From positions 1 to 32,982 of the IMG/VR virus record IMGVR_UViG_3300048883_000513: 32,982 nt of DNA. One strand, written 5' to 3'. Under the pieces are notes generated by a model. It did no database searches. It was not told the origin of the DNA and saw only the letters and a list, made by a program, of their open reading frames with translations. A program made the translations under genes and the position numbers. Position 1 is the stretch's first letter; each line of letters starts with the position of its first letter. Positions 4,476 through 32,982 of the stretch are shown piece after piece. Source of the stretch: a virus.

Positions 4476-4875
4476 ATTTTATTATCTCAATATTAAAATT
4501 TTTTAATAAACGTAATCCCGCAATATCTCGATACTCGACTAGATAATGAACTTTTTTTATACCGCTAGTAATAATTAATTTGGCACATTCAACACAGGGG
4601 GATAAGGTTGTATATAATTCGCATTCATTGGTGCCTAACCCATACTTTGCACAAAACAGAATTGCATTTTGTTCGGCATGAGCAACTGTTTGCTTAGTGG
4701 TATTATCTGAATTTTCACAGCAGTTATCTTCTCCAGGAAGTGTGCCATTATATCCGGTTGCCACAATACGTCCATCTTTCGATATTACCGCTCCAACTTT
4801 ATTACGTTTCGAATAGGATGCTTCAGCCCATAATTCAGCAGTACCCATTAGGAATTTTTTATTTTTAATTTCCAT
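4462..4875 (-). CDS. dCMP deaminase (ComEB-type cytidine/deoxycytidylate deaminase)
   Basis: 137 residues, a usual length for the family. It deaminates dCMP to dUMP, feeding dTMP synthesis. The zinc site is complete: H66-A-E68 (catalytic Glu) and P93-C94-V-E-C97. The N-terminal substrate region includes NKVGAVISKDGRIVATGYNG, and NCCENS gives the extra metal-binding region seen in dCMP deaminases. It overlaps the methyltransferase gene by 28 bases. Together with the thymidylate-synthase-family gene and the MazG-like gene it forms a nucleotide-metabolism group next to the DNA polymerase. Allosteric control by dCTP/dTTP, known in the family, was not assessed. Confidence 0.92.
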   Translation of the reverse strand: MEIKNKKFLMGTAELWAEASYSKRNKVGAVISKDGRIVATGYNGTLPGEDNCCENSDNTTKQTVAHAEQNAILFCAKYGLGTNECELYTTLSPCVECAKLIITSGIKKVHYLVEYRDIAGLRLLKNFNIEIIKYDNN

Positions 4876-5759
4876 ATCACATTTCTCGAGTATTCTGGGA
4901 AAAGAGGCGCCATAATTACTGAAATCATATTTGAATCATAATAAGCTCTTAAATTATCAAATATTTCACGTTGGGCATCCGTTAAGTGCGGTTTGTAATC
5001 TTTCACTGACGCAAATGTTCCATATTTTTCAATGATTTCAAATCCAGCAGTTGTTAAAATATTCTCCATTTCCGAATAAGTATATTCATTAACCTCATTG
5101 TCAGTAATATGATTCCCTGCAGCTGCTGAATTATGATCATAACACGGGGTGGACAATAGAATAGTTGTATTTAGGTTTGCAAATGATTTAAGATTTTTTA
5201 AATATTTATCCGCATTATCAACTCCGATATGCTCAATGACTTCAAATGATGTGATAATGTCAAAATCAATATTAAACTTTGGCAACGTATCAGAAGTCAA
5301 ATCACATTGTTTGAATTCTGCCCATCCTACATTTTCAAATTTATGAGTTGCTTGATTAACAGTATTTTCACGATATTCCAACCCAATATATTTGTTCGGT
5401 TTGAATCGATTTCGATAGAATACATCTGCAATTTCCCCAGATCCCGATCCAAAATCTAAAATGTTCATACCAATTTTAGCACATTTCAAAACATGTGTCC
5501 ATCTTAAATAATGAGCAAATTGATCGCGATGATAAATATGCCGCTCAAATTCTCCTTGCGGGGATAATTGAGTACAATTAAATGATTTTGATTTCATTGT
5601 TGTATCCTTTTCATTGGAAATAGCGGATAAGTTGATAGGATTATCACTTATGGAGGTCATCACATACTGTTCGCCATCCATATCAAATGGTTCGGACATT
5701 ATAGTTGCACGTTTAAATTGACCTTTTTTGTTTTTAATATATACTAAGTTGTTATTCAT
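4848..5759 (-). CDS. Class I SAM-dependent methyltransferase
   Basis: 303 residues. Motif I is MNILDFGSGSGEIADVF (~98-114), motif II-like GLEYRENT (~126-133), then a DIITSFEVIEHI segment and a LLSTPCYDH strand, matching Methyltransf_11/23 (UbiG-like) proteins. The first ~60 residues (KKGQFKRATIMSEPFDM) form a separate extension. No NPPY or PC motif of DNA N6A or C5 methylases is present, so the substrate is unlikely to be DNA in the ordinary restriction-modification sense; a small molecule, a modified nucleotide or a cell-surface group are all possible. AGGA lies 8 bases before the ATG. It sits between the TS-family gene and the deaminase. Confidence 0.85.
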   Translation of the reverse strand: MNNNLVYIKNKKGQFKRATIMSEPFDMDGEQYVMTSISDNPINLSAISNEKDTTMKSKSFNCTQLSPQGEFERHIYHRDQFAHYLRWTHVLKCAKIGMNILDFGSGSGEIADVFYRNRFKPNKYIGLEYRENTVNQATHKFENVGWAEFKQCDLTSDTLPKFNIDFDIITSFEVIEHIGVDNADKYLKNLKSFANLNTTILLSTPCYDHNSAAAGNHITDNEVNEYTYSEMENILTTAGFEIIEKYGTFASVKDYKPHLTDAQREIFDNLRAYYDSNMISVIMAPLFPEYSRNVIWKLKIKNS

Positions 5760-5762
5760 TAC

Positions 5763-6407
5763 TCATTCCTTAATTAGATTGAAGTGCCGATTATAAATAT
5801 GTAATGATGCGACATTCCAATACATATCTCCCATTATTAGTCGCGGGTAATATTTTATTAAGTGATTATATATTTGGTCGAATACAAAATCATGCCAAAA
5901 TTTATCATTTTTATATCCATATACCGCATCATTTGATCTCATATAGACATGGTAAGACAATATATTTGATCTAATAAATAATTGAACTGAAAATGTACAC
6001 ATGAAATCAGATTTTCCATTATCGATAGATCGCTCATGCATGTCTGTTGGGATATATAACATGGCAGCCTGACGGGTATGCTTATCATTAATCAATGCGT
6101 AAAGGCAATTATGAAATTGGTAATGATTTTCTTCAGAATAAATGCACCATCCGTAATTTGAATTAATAAATCCATCTTTATCGGCTATCTCTTTCCAAAT
6201 TGTTGGAGCCCCGCCCGTTATATCTTGAACATTTAAACTTTGAGACCGGTACCATTCTACTTCGTGGCATGCATATTCCAAATTAAGAGATCCAAATATT
6301 GATTCCTCATTTGCAATAAATGAGGCGTTTAATATCTCAATGGTCCCGTTTTCGCACACATCATTATTATTTAATTTTTCAATGAATGTATTTCTAATTT
6401 TTTGCAT
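5763..6407 (-). CDS. Thymidylate-synthase-family enzyme, probably dCMP (hydroxy)methylase-like
   Basis: 214 residues, shorter than bacterial ThyA (~264). Family landmarks can be placed by eye: E49 (CHEVEWY, catalytic Glu), NSNYGW (82-87), R112 (TRQAA), catalytic Cys C137 (DFMCTFSVQ), R157-S-N-D (MRSND), and the C-terminal SLHIY that supplies the sugar-binding His/Tyr. In ThyA an Asn (N177) reads uracil; in T4 dCMP hydroxymethylase and other cytosine-specific members it is Asp. Here the aligned residue is D168 (GYKND). This suggests dCMP as substrate, giving 5-hydroxymethyl- or 5-methyl-dCMP. Substrate assignment is inference from one residue; family membership is firm. Confidence 0.85.
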   Translation of the reverse strand: MQKIRNTFIEKLNNNDVCENGTIEILNASFIANEESIFGSLNLEYACHEVEWYRSQSLNVQDITGGAPTIWKEIADKDGFINSNYGWCIYSEENHYQFHNCLYALINDKHTRQAAMLYIPTDMHERSIDNGKSDFMCTFSVQLFIRSNILSYHVYMRSNDAVYGYKNDKFWHDFVFDQIYNHLIKYYPRLIMGDMYWNVASLHIYNRHFNLIKE

Positions 6408-6657
6408 TTAAGTATGTCTCCAAAAGCATTGCATATCCCGCAATGTCATGTGCATTATCTGCATAGTCTGGATCACCACATACCATTCTAGAAATTTTAT
6501 GAAAAATCATGTGGATAGCTTCGAGATGTGCATTATCTAGCTTATCAAAACTAGGAGCTGATTTAATAACTAATATTAATTCCTGACATATTCTAGAGTT
6601 ATCTTCGAATGACCCATAACGATCACCCCTAGATTTTAAAGTATCATTTACTTCCAT
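6394..6657 (-). CDS. DUF6378 protein
   Basis: 87 residues matching a small phage family (DUF6378): RGDRYGSF (10-17), then a helix and the conserved KISRMVCGDPDYADNAHDIA (54-73) ending in GYAML. The Asp/His-rich second motif resembles those of all-alpha nucleotide pyrophosphatases, and the gene lies between a MazG-like gene and the TS-family gene. A nucleotide-related role is plausible but not shown. Both ends overlap neighbouring genes by 14 bases. Confidence 0.85.
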   Translation of the reverse strand: MEVNDTLKSRGDRYGSFEDNSRICQELILVIKSAPSFDKLDNAHLEAIHMIFHKISRMVCGDPDYADNAHDIAGYAMLLETYLNAKN

Positions 6658-7057
6658 TGTCTTCTCCTAATATTTCTTTAAAGTTAGGAGGTATCCATCC
6701 CTCAGGTTTTACCACATCTAGGCTATGTTTACGTTTTGATCGTTGATCGTGTGGTGCTTGAACCCTTTCCTTTGCCATATTTGCTCGTTGAACCTCATCC
6801 CATAAACTTTCCCATGGTAACCCCATCATCACTGCTGTGCCCATGATAACATACACCATATCAACTAAAGCATCCGCAGCATCTATAAGATCTCCATCAT
6901 CATTTGCTTTAACCCATTCATTAAATTCTTCTTTTATAAAATTGGTTCTAAACTTATAAGTATCATAATCCAACATTTGAGGTTTATCTGGTGTAGGCAA
7001 TCCAAATGCCAAATGAAATATTAATACATCTTTATGATTCGAGAATTTACTATTCAT
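6644..7057 (-). CDS. MazG-like all-alpha NTP pyrophosphohydrolase
   Basis: 137 residues. The all-alpha NTP-PPase metal motif is visible: E43/E44...E47 in KEEFNE and D62...D66 in ADALVDMVYV, followed by GTAVMMGLPWESLWDEVQRANMAK. Such enzymes hydrolyse (d)NTPs to (d)NMP and pyrophosphate; T4 dCTPase belongs to the same superfamily. It is placed directly after the DNA polymerase gene and two genes before the TS-family enzyme, so a dCTP- or dUTP-removing role is plausible. AAGGAG lies 8 bases upstream of the ATG. The start overlaps the polymerase 3' end. Confidence 0.88.
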   Translation of the reverse strand: MNSKFSNHKDVLIFHLAFGLPTPDKPQMLDYDTYKFRTNFIKEEFNEWVKANDDGDLIDAADALVDMVYVIMGTAVMMGLPWESLWDEVQRANMAKERVQAPHDQRSKRKHSLDVVKPEGWIPPNFKEILGEDNGSK

Positions 7058-8876
7058 CTTTTAACTCCTTCAATAATTTATAAGCCTTTGAAACGTAATA
7101 GGTTTTATCGATGTTGTTTAAACATTTTAAACCGGTATATTGGTTTTGTAAACAAATTTTATAACTGTTTGGTATTTTAATGACATTATTTCTTTTGCCT
7201 CCCTTTTTAGTAAGCTGTTGAATATTGTAATCAATTGCAACATACCATCGATTTGATTTTTGAATTTCTTTATTGTCAGCATACATTTTAAATTCCGAAG
7301 TTGCGGAGAAAGAATAAAGAAAATCAAAAACATCATCATGGTCATTAATTGTTTCTTCAATGGGAGTTCCGCGTAATAAATAATTTACTACAGATTTTGC
7401 AATTATAGGAACGGGTGTATCTTTCTTAATGTGCGGGGTATTAAATATTCCTTTTGCTTTTTGCTCGCCATTGAGTGTCACCGCGAGATAATTATTGACG
7501 TCCCTACGGATCAATGATCGGTAATGAGTTTCTTCTAAATCGAAACCTGTAACTATTTCCCATTTGTGATAAATCTCACGAATATGATCTATGGCCATTG
7601 GGCTGTCTGACCCAATATCTATCGTTATCCCATCGGTATTAGCAGATATGACTGCATAATTATTTGATTCTAATTGTTCGATCAACATTAATAATGACAA
7701 CTGCCCGTTGACGGTTGTTGATAATAACAAATGTGGATCATAATTTACCGAATGGCGCGATCCAAATTTACCAAACACCGAATTAATAATGATCTTTAAT
7801 GCATTTGATTCAACTTTATTACCTTTTTTTTTGTGGTATAGTCGTTCATCGCGAATTGATTTATAAACATTGTTCCAACTTTTAGTGAATGATTTTGGAT
7901 ATAAGCCGTTATTAATTACAATAGATGGGTAATAGGATACCACGTCGACATCGACATAACGAGCATTGATATTTATTAGTGGCTTGTCTATCGAATGTAA
8001 CCCGCCTATACCTAATTGATATTCGGTATTGCCGATTTTTATTTTTCTAGTCATTAATTTGGCATCAGGATAGCCCTTAACCGAAAGTGGAACAACAGTG
8101 GCTTTTATATCGTTTAATAACTCCACCAGATTCTCGTCATAAAAATAAATCCAATCAAATACGAAATCAGAAATGCCATACCTTCTAAAATAATGATATA
8201 GCTCATTAGTTGAATGTTCAATATCTGGATTTGGAACTAACTTTCTAATTATACTTTCTGCAACCGCCGCCTCAGATGAGGACGCAAGTCTATCTGTGTG
8301 AAATTTATCTTCCAAATAAAGTCGTAATGAATGTTCGGATTTATTCCCAACCCATACTTGTTCAGTGGCATTCACATCCATTTCGCAATATTCTTTAAGT
8401 TGGATTATTTGAGATTGGTCAAGGCATAAGTGAGGATTAAACGGCAAATCCCTAACATCCTTACATCTTATTCTAATCTCTACTTTTTTAAGAGATGGCA
8501 TTGGGTTAAGGATTGCCTTTATATCAATCGATTTAACCATATTATTTCTATCATTCCATCTTATTTTATTGAGACTATTTATTAACCCTGTATCATTTGG
8601 ACCAGGTTCTATAATAGCTTTTGATGCACGATATAAAGCATTTGTATTGCTTGCTCCTTTTAGTAAATAATTCAATAGTACGTCATCGTATGATAATGAG
8701 TTCCATCCTACAAGATCATGCCCATGGGTATTTAAAAATGAAATTAGTTTTTGAGTATCGTTTATGACTGCATCTGGATTAATCTCAAAACTTTGGTATT
8801 TACCAGAATTTTCATTTTTAAATAGTGCATAGAAGTAATTTGGATAAACCTCTAAATCATAAATCCATTTTGACAT
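7050..8876 (-). CDS. Family B DNA polymerase with 3'-5' exonuclease
   Basis: 608 residues, compact for family B. Exonuclease motifs: D7-L-E9 (ExoI), N59...D64 in VGWNSLSYDD (ExoII) and Y163...D167 in EYCEMDVNA (ExoIII). Polymerase motif A is VDVVSYYPSIV with D311; motif B is K361-IIINSVFGKFG. Motif C reads N413-T-D415-G instead of the usual D-T-D-S, so the catalytic second Asp is kept but the first is Asn. No terminal-protein region is evident. It begins one base after the stop of the exonuclease gene and is the main replicative polymerase candidate, alongside a separate PrimPol-helicase at 13840. Confidence 0.92.
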   Translation of the reverse strand: MSKWIYDLEVYPNYFYALFKNENSGKYQSFEINPDAVINDTQKLISFLNTHGHDLVGWNSLSYDDVLLNYLLKGASNTNALYRASKAIIEPGPNDTGLINSLNKIRWNDRNNMVKSIDIKAILNPMPSLKKVEIRIRCKDVRDLPFNPHLCLDQSQIIQLKEYCEMDVNATEQVWVGNKSEHSLRLYLEDKFHTDRLASSSEAAVAESIIRKLVPNPDIEHSTNELYHYFRRYGISDFVFDWIYFYDENLVELLNDIKATVVPLSVKGYPDAKLMTRKIKIGNTEYQLGIGGLHSIDKPLININARYVDVDVVSYYPSIVINNGLYPKSFTKSWNNVYKSIRDERLYHKKKGNKVESNALKIIINSVFGKFGSRHSVNYDPHLLLSTTVNGQLSLLMLIEQLESNNYAVISANTDGITIDIGSDSPMAIDHIREIYHKWEIVTGFDLEETHYRSLIRRDVNNYLAVTLNGEQKAKGIFNTPHIKKDTPVPIIAKSVVNYLLRGTPIEETINDHDDVFDFLYSFSATSEFKMYADNKEIQKSNRWYVAIDYNIQQLTKKGGKRNNVIKIPNSYKICLQNQYTGLKCLNNIDKTYYVSKAYKLLKELKDE

Positions 8877-31413: not shown

Positions 31414-31709
31414 TGGAGATTAAAACCACTTGCCCATTGGGAAGCCAGTGCGAGGAAATAAAAGATAACCAGATGCACCGTTGTGCTTGGTATACGAACA
31501 TCAAGGGCAAAGAACCACAGTCAGAAGAAATGATTGATAAGTGGGAATGTGCGATTGCGTTCATGCCGATGTTACAAATTGAGATGTCGCAAACCAACAG
31601 AGGGCAGACAAATGCACTGTGTTCTTTCCGTGATGAGATGATTAAAACAAATGAAAAAGCGTTGGCTATTCAGTCAGCAAAATTGATGATTGGAGAAGAA
31701 ATTGGCTGA
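31413..31709 (+). CDS. Conserved phage protein with cysteine pattern
   Basis: 98 residues. Five Cys (7, 13, 24, 46, 70) within TTCPLGSQC, HRCAWYTNIKGKEP and DKWECAIAFMPMLQIEM. I associate this pattern with a small recurrent family located among fibre genes of environmental phages; the Cys could bind a metal or an Fe-S cluster. The ATG shares a base with the previous stop (TAATG). Its end overlaps the start of the large fibre by eight bases. Function unknown. Confidence 0.75.
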   Translation: MEIKTTCPLGSQCEEIKDNQMHRCAWYTNIKGKEPQSEEMIDKWECAIAFMPMLQIEMSQTNRGQTNALCSFRDEMIKTNEKALAIQSAKLMIGEEIG

Positions 31710-32982
31710 TAAAAAAATAAGTGAGTTAACTGCGCTCACGACTGCAAATGACAGTATTGAATTTGTTATTAATGATGGTGGCGCGTCTAAGAAGATAACT
31801 AGGGCAACATTGCTTACAGGTGTAGGCGTTGATACTCAGCTAACAGCAACAAGCAATATCGGATTAGGTTCTGGTGCTGTCGATTCGATTACTACGGGTG
31901 ATTTCAATGTGGGGTTGGGTGATTCTGCGCTGACCTCGGTTACTTCATCAAATGATAATACCGCTGTAGGCTCCTCTGCTTTAACAGCAACCACTACAGG
32001 TAATAAAAATTCTGCATTAGGACGTTCCACTCTATGGACAAACACCACAGGTTCAAGTAATGTCGCTATTGGTTATGGTTCTATGTTCTACAACACAACA
32101 GCGCATTACAACACAGCTGTTGGTGTAGAATCACTACTATCCAACACAACAGGCACAAACAATACTGCCTCTGGTTATCAGAGTTTGTACTCGAATACTA
32201 CAGCTTCTGGAAATACAGCAGTTGGTGATGTAGCTTTAAAAGCAAACACTACAGGTGCTTCTAACACATCAGTTGGTAAAAATGCTCTGACAGCTAATAC
32301 TACAGCGCATGACAATACAGCAGTTGGCTGGAACGCTTTAGCATCCAATACTACAGGCTCTACTAATGTTGCTGTTGGGACTGCTTCTTTAGATGCTAAT
32401 ACGACAGCTTCTAATAACACAGCAATTGGTATGCACTCTCTTGGGTCTACCACTACAGGCGCAAACAATACTGCATCTGGTCGTAGTGCTTTACACTCAA
32501 ACACCACAGGCTTGGATAATACTGCCTCTGGTTATCGGGCTTTGTACTCAAATACTACTGGCTCATATAATACTGCTGTTGGTAGAGAGTCACTTAGAAA
32601 CAACACCACAGCGCATTACAATGCCGCGTTTGGTCAGAACTCAATGTATCAAAACACCACAGGCACAAACAATACTGCTTCTGGTTCTCATGCTTTGTTC
32701 TCAAACACCACAGGCTCATACAACGCCACTGGTGGTGTAGGTGCTTTATACAATAACACCACAGCGCATTACAATGCCGCTTATGGGTTTAATGCTTTGT
32801 ACTCAAACACCACAGGCGGTTACAATACATCAGTTGGTTCTAATTCTCTATTCACAAACACCACAGGCGCGAGCAATACTGCTTCTGGTTATCAAGCGTT
32901 GTACTCGAATACTACGGGTGCTGAGAATAACGCTTTTGGTTTAAACGCCTTATATTCCAACACAACAGGGAGTACCAATACT
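31702..32982 (+). CDS. Large tail fibre, N-terminal part (3' end beyond window), TTG start
   Basis: TTG at 31702 has GGAG at a 6-base spacing and is followed by ADKKISELTALTTANDS and KKITRATLL, the typical N-terminal attachment element of phage fibres. From base 31957 the chain is made of 17-residue repeats until the window ends in-frame at 32982 after 427 codons. The C-terminal part is most likely the open frame at 1-1226. If the two ends are joined, the protein would exceed 830 residues. The TTG start is unusual but the only one with a good ribosome site. Confidence 0.85.
   Translation, partial: MADKKISELTALTTANDSIEFVINDGGASKKITRATLLTGVGVDTQLTATSNIGLGSGAVDSITTGDFNVGLGDSALTSVTSSNDNTAVGSSALTATTTGNKNSALGRSTLWTNTTGSSNVAIGYGSMFYNTTAHYNTAVGVESLLSNTTGTNNTASGYQSLYSNTTASGNTAVGDVALKANTTGASNTSVGKNALTANTTAHDNTAVGWNALASNTTGSTNVAVGTASLDANTTASNNTAIGMHSLGSTTTGANNTASGRSALHSNTTGLDNTASGYRALYSNTTGSYNTAVGRESLRNNTTAHYNAAFGQNSMYQNTTGTNNTASGSHALFSNTTGSYNATGGVGALYNNTTAHYNAAYGFNALYSNTTGGYNTSVGSNSLFTNTTGASNTASGYQALYSNTTGAENNAFGLNALYSNTTGSTNT
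31957..32982 (+). repeat. Twenty tandem 17-residue (51-bp) repeats of the fibre
   Basis: Twenty complete units plus two residues, each of the form N-T-A-x-G-x-x-[AS]-L-x-x-N-T-T-[GA]-x-x. Units differ at DNA level, but blocks such as AACACCACAGG and AATACTGC recur many times. The period is constant at 51 bp. Such arrays fold as elongated beta-roll or beta-helix shafts, and unequal recombination between units can change shaft length. Confidence 0.9.

Follow-up and report, generated by a model that had tools for sequence, protein, structure and literature searches.

Phages cap the 5-hydroxymethylcytosine (hmC) of their DNA with sugars or with a carbamoyl group and thereby escape restriction. 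A dCMP deaminase and a thymidylate synthase (TS) together form the textbook route to dTMP. In T4 gp42, the dCMP hydroxymethylase, Asp145 lies three residues before the catalytic Cys and activates the hydroxylating water; PMC6400193 describes it as a signature of the hydroxymethylase and places Leu at this position in thymidylate synthases. The MetaGPA study found TS homologues with Asp177, PRA-PH domains and dCMP deaminase domains in cytosine-modified contigs, and described a carbamoyl cap; the word methyltransferase is absent from its main text and occurs five times in a fuller text (PMC8670742). Phage AXL1 is a relative of the 5-methylcytosine phage Xp12, and its authors have suggested 5-methylcytosine for AXL1 as well (PMC9206674). 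In the literature searched, we found no report of 5-methoxymethylcytosine, of its nucleoside, or of an hmC O-methyltransferase in a phage.

Here, we analyzed 32,982 nucleotides of viral DNA, the whole stretch from position 1 to 32,982 of IMG/VR record IMGVR_UViG_3300048883_000513 (the window). Six minus-strand genes that overlap or lie 3 bases apart encode, in this order, a B-family polymerase (PolB), a MazG-like protein, a DUF6378 protein, a hydroxymethylase, a SAM-dependent methyltransferase (MT) and a dCMP deaminase (Table 1). An earlier reading of the sequence alone (the sequence-only reading) had given these names to the neighbours of the TS-family gene, and Pfam and PHROG matches agree with them. 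It had also seen no dNMP kinase and no glucosyltransferase. Likewise, we found neither a glycosyltransferase nor a nucleotide kinase, the latter also by a kinase profile, among the window ORFs scanned, a set that leaves out some small ORFs. The rest of the window includes head and tail genes of siphovirus-like type as well as genes for a primase, a helicase and recombination. At both window ends (1-1226 and 31690-32982), the frame of a tail-fibre-like gene built of degenerate repeats runs open. Its two open frames are out of phase, which could mean that a portion of the gene is missing from the record.

Table 1. Genes of the minus-strand cluster and key residues of the hydroxymethylase.
Feature	Position	Strand	Basis
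B-family DNA polymerase, 608 aa, first of the overlapping run	7050..8876	(-)	phrog_1252 3e-142
MazG-like / PRA-PH nucleotide pyrophosphohydrolase, 137 aa; putative dCTP hydrolysis	6644..7057	(-)	PF01503 1.5e-15
DUF6378 protein, 87 aa; kept beside gp42-type genes in relatives	6394..6657	(-)	PF19905 3e-6
T4 gp42-type dCMP hydroxymethylase, 214 aa	5763..6407	(-)	intact ORF; phmmer, alignment, tree
Hydroxylation residue D134 of hydroxymethylase	codon 6006-6008	(-)	counted from ORF start
Catalytic C137 of hydroxymethylase	codon 5997-5999	(-)	counted from ORF start
Base-reading D168 of hydroxymethylase	codon 5904-5906	(-)	counted from ORF start
SAM-dependent methyltransferase, 303 aa; putative O-methyltransferase on 5-hydroxymethylcytosine	4848..5759	(-)	Methyltransf_23 4.7e-17
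dCMP deaminase, 137 aa	4462..4875	(-)	PF00383 4.7e-23; phrog_174 1.8e-53

We compared the hydroxymethylase ORF with PDB proteins and found T4 dCMP hydroxymethylase (1b49) as the best match (phmmer, E = 4.9e-52). The CMP hydroxymethylase MilA matched at 2.3e-7, and thymidylate synthases matched at 2.2e-5 or weaker. A tblastn search of 50,697 phage records gave 1,070 matches, none of them at an identity of at least 60%; the 60 matches listed of these 1,070 were made up of T4-like phages at 46-50% identity. In a TS tree, from which rows shorter than 150 aa or near-identical (85% and 80%) had been removed beforehand, the window enzyme was located inside the T4 gp42 clade (52 rows, SH-aLRT 99). The alignment equates C137, D168 and D134 of the window with Cys148, Asp179 and Asp145 of gp42, S83 and Y85 with Ser94 and Tyr96, E49 with Glu60, and D160 with Asp171; that is, the full T4 set is kept. 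The sequence-only reading had taken C137 as the catalytic Cys and D168 as the cytosine-type Asp. Both assignments hold, with an Asp and not an Asn at the base-reading site, and its proposal of a candidate cytosine-modification cluster is supported by the gp42 clade and by the presence of both Asp179 and Asp145.

Judged by its sequence, the ORF is a member of the gp42 family, and the enzyme should convert C to hydroxymethylated C. It has the clade and the catalytic, base-reading, hydroxylation and folate-binding residues in common with T4 gp42. However, its C-terminus is shorter, Lys28 and Val85 are not kept, and the surrounding genome is siphovirus-like, measures 33 kb and has no glucosyltransferase adjoining the hydroxymethylase.

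The residues at positions 145 and 179 separate the related enzymes. In one alignment, T4 gp42 and the window enzyme have Asp/Asp, the SPO1 dUMP hydroxymethylase has Asp/Asn, a canonical TS has Leu/Asn, the TS of AXL1, which represented the Xp12-type enzyme, has Asn/Asp, and the RB69 homologue has Glu/Asp with Asn in place of Asp171. A dCMP methylase making 5-methylcytosine, as in Xp12, would fit the base-reading Asp of the window enzyme too, because the AXL1 enzyme also has it. However, Asp145 is present in the window as in the T4 and SPO1 hydroxymethylases, against Asn in AXL1 and Leu in canonical TS, and the window enzyme lies inside the gp42 clade. AXL1 also differs by a DHFR gene beside its TS. 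The Xp12-type pattern (Asp179 without Asp145) was rejected for the window, and we consider a methylase very unlikely. The combination of Asp179 and Asn145 in the AXL1 TS (L355:8623-9564) is a possible dCMP methylase signature.

The enzyme might also make 5-hydroxy-dCMP like the RB69 homologue, in which case MT would make 5-methoxycytosine. RB69-type synthases share the superfamily and the base-reading Asp (PMC13390438). However, the window enzyme is 23% identical to the RB69 protein as against 43% to T4 gp42, and it keeps both the folate-binding Asp171, which is Asn in RB69, and the RSND-G motif, which RB69 lacks. The RB69 type was rejected on this identity and on the kept RSND and G, and such a product is scarcely probable. 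Two observations on other TS-like genes were made in passing. Pelagibacter phage HTVC200P (L353:4974-5792) has an annotated thymidylate synthase with Asp145/Asp179, and no MT match was found in this phage. In L271, L273, L283, L287 and L296, TS-like proteins of about 250 aa give a pattern match that ends in Cys instead of Asp or Asn (e.g. RAKDLKEGINNC), and their genes adjoin the same polymerase type as the window's.

The separate contig L001 has PolB, MazG, DUF6378, hydroxymethylase, MT and deaminase in the same order as the window. Its hydroxymethylase is 54% identical to the window's, and the gene arrangement, repeated in this way, is not a matter of chance. The DUF6378 protein was present in 25 of 81 loci with gp42-type genes; hhalign found no significant match between it and MazG, or between it and another small protein that occupies the same place in relatives. 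Taken by sequence, a cytosine-directed cluster is supported as the best reading of the locus, as a candidate.

We then considered the chemistry of MT. The MT alignment (A4) was built without near-identical rows (88%), L006 and the long L022, and a second one (A5) also without L003, L004 and L005. Invariant in the family are H77-R78-D79, E173, E176, H177, H217 and R292-N293, with E173, E176, H177 and H217 found in all 46 MT sequences. The MT profile (49 members) matched HEN1 (1.3e-11), bacterial Hen1 (1e-10) and UbiG (8e-8) in the PDB, and also a protein lysine methyltransferase (5doo, 1.7e-10). In the alignment with HEN1, the ExxEH of that enzyme falls on E173, E176 and H177, and H217 would correspond to the fourth HEN1 ligand. 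A His after motif II has been described as magnesium-binding in HEN1 and as needed for growth in UbiG (PMC9774615).

The AlphaFold model of MT has a mean pLDDT of 84.8 and a pTM of 0.77. Foldseek ranked phosphoethanolamine N-methyltransferases first, and VIA-align ranked CmoM first (8joz, Z 20.5; 4htf, which we take to be CmoM as well, Z 19.6), with other class I enzymes at 17-19; the CmoM value of 20.5 is only 1.3 above the best non-CmoM row. The substrate of CmoM is an oxygen in the side chain that a tRNA uridine carries at C5. Because the two programs favour different enzymes, the fold of MT alone does not decide the chemistry. The amino-methyltransferase motif [DNS]PP[YFWH] was found in 0/46 MT sequences, by which an N4-cytosine or N6-adenine DNA methyltransferase was rejected, and the C5-DNA-methyltransferase motif PCQ was also found in 0/46. 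MT resembles the O-methyltransferases HEN1, UbiG and CmoM in its aligned ExxEH, its further His and the first rank of CmoM in VIA-align. It differs from them in forming a phage family apart, with HRD, NH and RN motifs not shared with them, whose substrate we infer. Since the products of the partner enzymes should carry a hydroxyl on C5, the simplest chemistry for MT is to O-methylate it, and MT may act like an O-methyltransferase on hmC.

We explored how MT is distributed. The family occurred in 5 of the 50,697 phage records, which represent 4 genomes, and searches with two further members retrieved the same 5. All four MT regions that were opened contain MT, an NTP-pyrophosphohydrolase, a TS-like gene and a dCMP deaminase; a thymidylate-kinase-like gene is annotated in two of them and detected by profile in all four. 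Among viral contigs, 260 stretches had MT relatives at E 1e-3, of which the best 80 were kept as a ranked and related sample. A TS-like gene accompanied MT in 80 of 86 MT-bearing sources (74 on the stretch and 6 elsewhere on the contig) and was absent from the whole contig in the other 6; it lay on the MT strand in 74/74. The sequence-only reading had left the substrate of MT open, and these related loci tie MT to the same pathway.

The base-reading Asp was present in 80/80 readable TS-like genes on these MT-bearing viral sources, that is, on related sequences from the best 80 of 260 loci and the phage records, of which 60 TS rows remain after removal of near-copies. In L170 the Asp was found in a register shifted by one residue, and the L066 motif ending in Ala was rejected as a false pattern match. 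Thr follows the catalytic Cys in 78 of the 80. Asp145 is present in 77; the rest are one truncated gene (L068) and two exceptions, L033 with Tyr at position 145 and Asp one residue earlier, and L036 with Asn. A MazG-like gene was found in 62 and a deaminase in 54 of the 86 sources. A kinase-like gene was detected by profile in 46/86, against 3/78 gp42-type loci without MT.

In the controls, MT was found in none of 25 viral contigs collected through canonical TS (23 Asn, 1 Asp in L342 and 1 unreadable in L338). Of 78 polymerase-anchored loci, 26 have an Asp-type TS, and one of these carries MT; none of the remaining 52 does, and 37 of them have no TS on the stretch. This set overlaps the gp42 set, and its sole MT locus, L285, is the contig of L097. 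The base rate of Asp-type TS among viruses with which the 80/80 can be compared is a biased one, and among the polymerase kin it is high (26 of 33 readable). New loci found via the gp42 lineage carried MT in 1 of 79 cases. MT is thus rare among gp42-lineage loci and absent from the 25 contigs found with a canonical TS, which means that MT accompanies the Asp-type enzyme and not vice versa.

Within the gp42 clade of the TS tree, MT-bearing rows sit in four places, with 4 label changes, 2 of which are forced by strongly supported branches. Gp42-type partners in the MT tree show 5 changes, and strongly supported branches force every one of them. The pairing has persisted through exchanges of partner between MT and hydroxymethylase lineages. 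In L022, a single ORF of 483 aa encodes both a P-loop kinase-like domain and MT, and the contig also has an Asp-type TS; the kinase-type Pfam matches of this ORF (0.004 to 0.02) are weak and fall short of the curated cut-offs. This fusion hints that MT acts at the mononucleotide stage.

It could be argued that the cluster makes hmC or a nucleotide-level product and that MT does something else, acting on another atom of the base, on tRNA or on a host protein. The fold of MT and its ExxEH-like motifs are common in class I methyltransferases, among N-, C- and O-methyltransferases of many substrates, and 78 of the 79 new gp42-lineage loci lack MT. However, the 80 partners come from several TS lineages with exchanged pairings and are all Asp-type, MT is absent from the 25 canonical-TS contigs, it occurs fused to the kinase-like domain, and none of the 46 sequences has the amino-methyltransferase motif. 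We regard such a different role of MT as rather unlikely.

Among prokaryote genomes (84,980 species), a search for the family gave 71 loci, of which only 4 are clear members (scores 273-306, next 76). The contigs of three of them, L172, L173 and L174, measure 15, 5.5 and 4.2 kb; a TS of the Asn type was found on a different contig in two of the three genomes, and no TS in the third. The fourth (L175:7926-8876) is on a contig of 305,838 bases that was binned as Methylococcaceae and also has an Asp-type TS, which suggests a large phage put in the wrong bin.

We also examined which gene follows the hydroxymethylase, counting same-strand ORFs of at least 85 aa. MT follows directly in the window and in L001, and one small ORF lies between in L097. 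In 15 close relatives, another family of about 339 aa follows the hydroxymethylase, and in T4 the beta-glucosyltransferase gene (b-gt) follows gene 42. MT thus occupies the position that a known or likely decorator has in relatives. The T4-type alpha-glucosyltransferase PF11440 was found in 0/50 MT contigs and 7/50 gp42 contigs without MT (Fisher p 0.012), a weak comparison in which the sets are not matched and the records may be fragments. The hmC carbamoyltransferase clusters likewise place an Asp-type TS homologue, PRA-PH and dCMP deaminase beside a decorating enzyme (PMC8670742), but the decorator candidate of the window is a SAM methyltransferase, and the carbamoyltransferase PF16861 was found in 0/50 MT contigs. 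Because it was also found in 0/50 gp42 contigs without MT, this comparison is uninformative, and PF16861 was rejected as an exclusive alternative decorator. The 50 MT contigs of both comparisons are a subset of the MT-bearing records.

Other genes near gp42-type genes were noted in these loci. A gp42-type gene followed by the family of about 339 aa is found at L087:3472-4110 and downstream, and also in L088-L090, L092-L096, L102, L112, L114 and L116. These loci often also have a family of about 320 aa, weakly matched to PLP enzymes, and another of about 390 aa; no Pfam match was obtained with representatives of the 339-aa and 390-aa families. The three families are a candidate hypermodification pathway for cytosine. 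C5-cytosine DNA methylase-like genes (L111:10666-11877, PF00145 2.5e-17, and similar ORFs in 10 loci) lie near a T4-type alpha-glucosyltransferase gene in gp42-type phages.

Ordinary nucleotide metabolism, in which the deaminase and the TS-like enzyme make dTMP and no modified base, has to be considered as well. The sequence-only reading had remarked that the deaminase fits plain dTMP synthesis. This remains true of the textbook route, but both specificity positions of the TS-like enzyme are of the dCMP hydroxymethylase type. The authors of Stenotrophomonas phage AXL3 read gp27-gp29 as dTMP synthesis, noted a second, ThyX-type synthase, and suspected that hypothetical proteins of the module make altered nucleotides (PMC7504290). 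They also reported that, of 37 restriction enzymes, only TasI and Tru1I, both with A/T-only sites, cut the genomic DNA of AXL3 (PMC7504290). The separate synthase and the resistance at G/C sites argue against ordinary metabolism, which we consider highly improbable.

AXL3 gp28 is an Asp145/Asp179 enzyme and adjoins a kinase, a pyrophosphohydrolase and MT (gp31). The restriction pattern is compatible with a modified cytosine without showing which base it is, and the resistance could stem from other genes of AXL3. The phenotype transfers to the window by inference, because the AXL3 TS belongs to another lineage and the MTs of AXL3 and the window share only 27% identity. AXL3 and Pseudoxanthomonas phage PW916 have the MT family, an NTP-pyrophosphohydrolase, an Asp-type TS and a deaminase in common with the window. 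They differ from it in that TS lineage and in a detected kinase-like gene, and their records read the genes as thymidylate or dUMP metabolism. The words restriction and digest do not occur in the PW916 paper (PMC9414467).

Taken together, we think it somewhat more probable than an even chance that MT O-methylates the 5-hydroxymethyl group to give 5-methoxymethylcytosine and that the cluster replaces cytosine by this capped hydroxymethylcytosine in the phage DNA. The MazG-like protein would lower dCTP and supply dCMP for the hydroxymethylase. A kinase, the host's in this phage and phage-encoded in many relatives, would take the modified nucleotide towards the triphosphate. With SAM as donor and probably a divalent metal, MT would methylate the oxygen of the 5-hydroxymethyl group, either on the mononucleotide or after incorporation. 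The methyl cap would stand in for the sugar added by T4 and would blunt restriction, and the deaminase, by the established function of its family, would feed dTMP synthesis from the remaining dCMP.

We regard the cluster as a putative variant of phage cytosine hypermodification in which MT is the new part. We suggest, tentatively and with slightly less than even confidence, that a mostly uncultured phage group writes its genome with 5-methoxymethylcytosine by means of a hydroxymethylase and a metal-dependent O-methyltransferase, partly at the mononucleotide stage, with SAM replacing UDP-glucose as the cap source. If this is true, the cap would be very small, would need only SAM, and would shield the hydroxyl from enzymes that recognise or glucosylate hmC; both the DNA base and the enzyme acting on hmC would be new. 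The assignment of these genes to dTMP synthesis is corrected by this reading, and two cultured phages, AXL3 and PW916, carry the gene set, AXL3 being already restriction-resistant.
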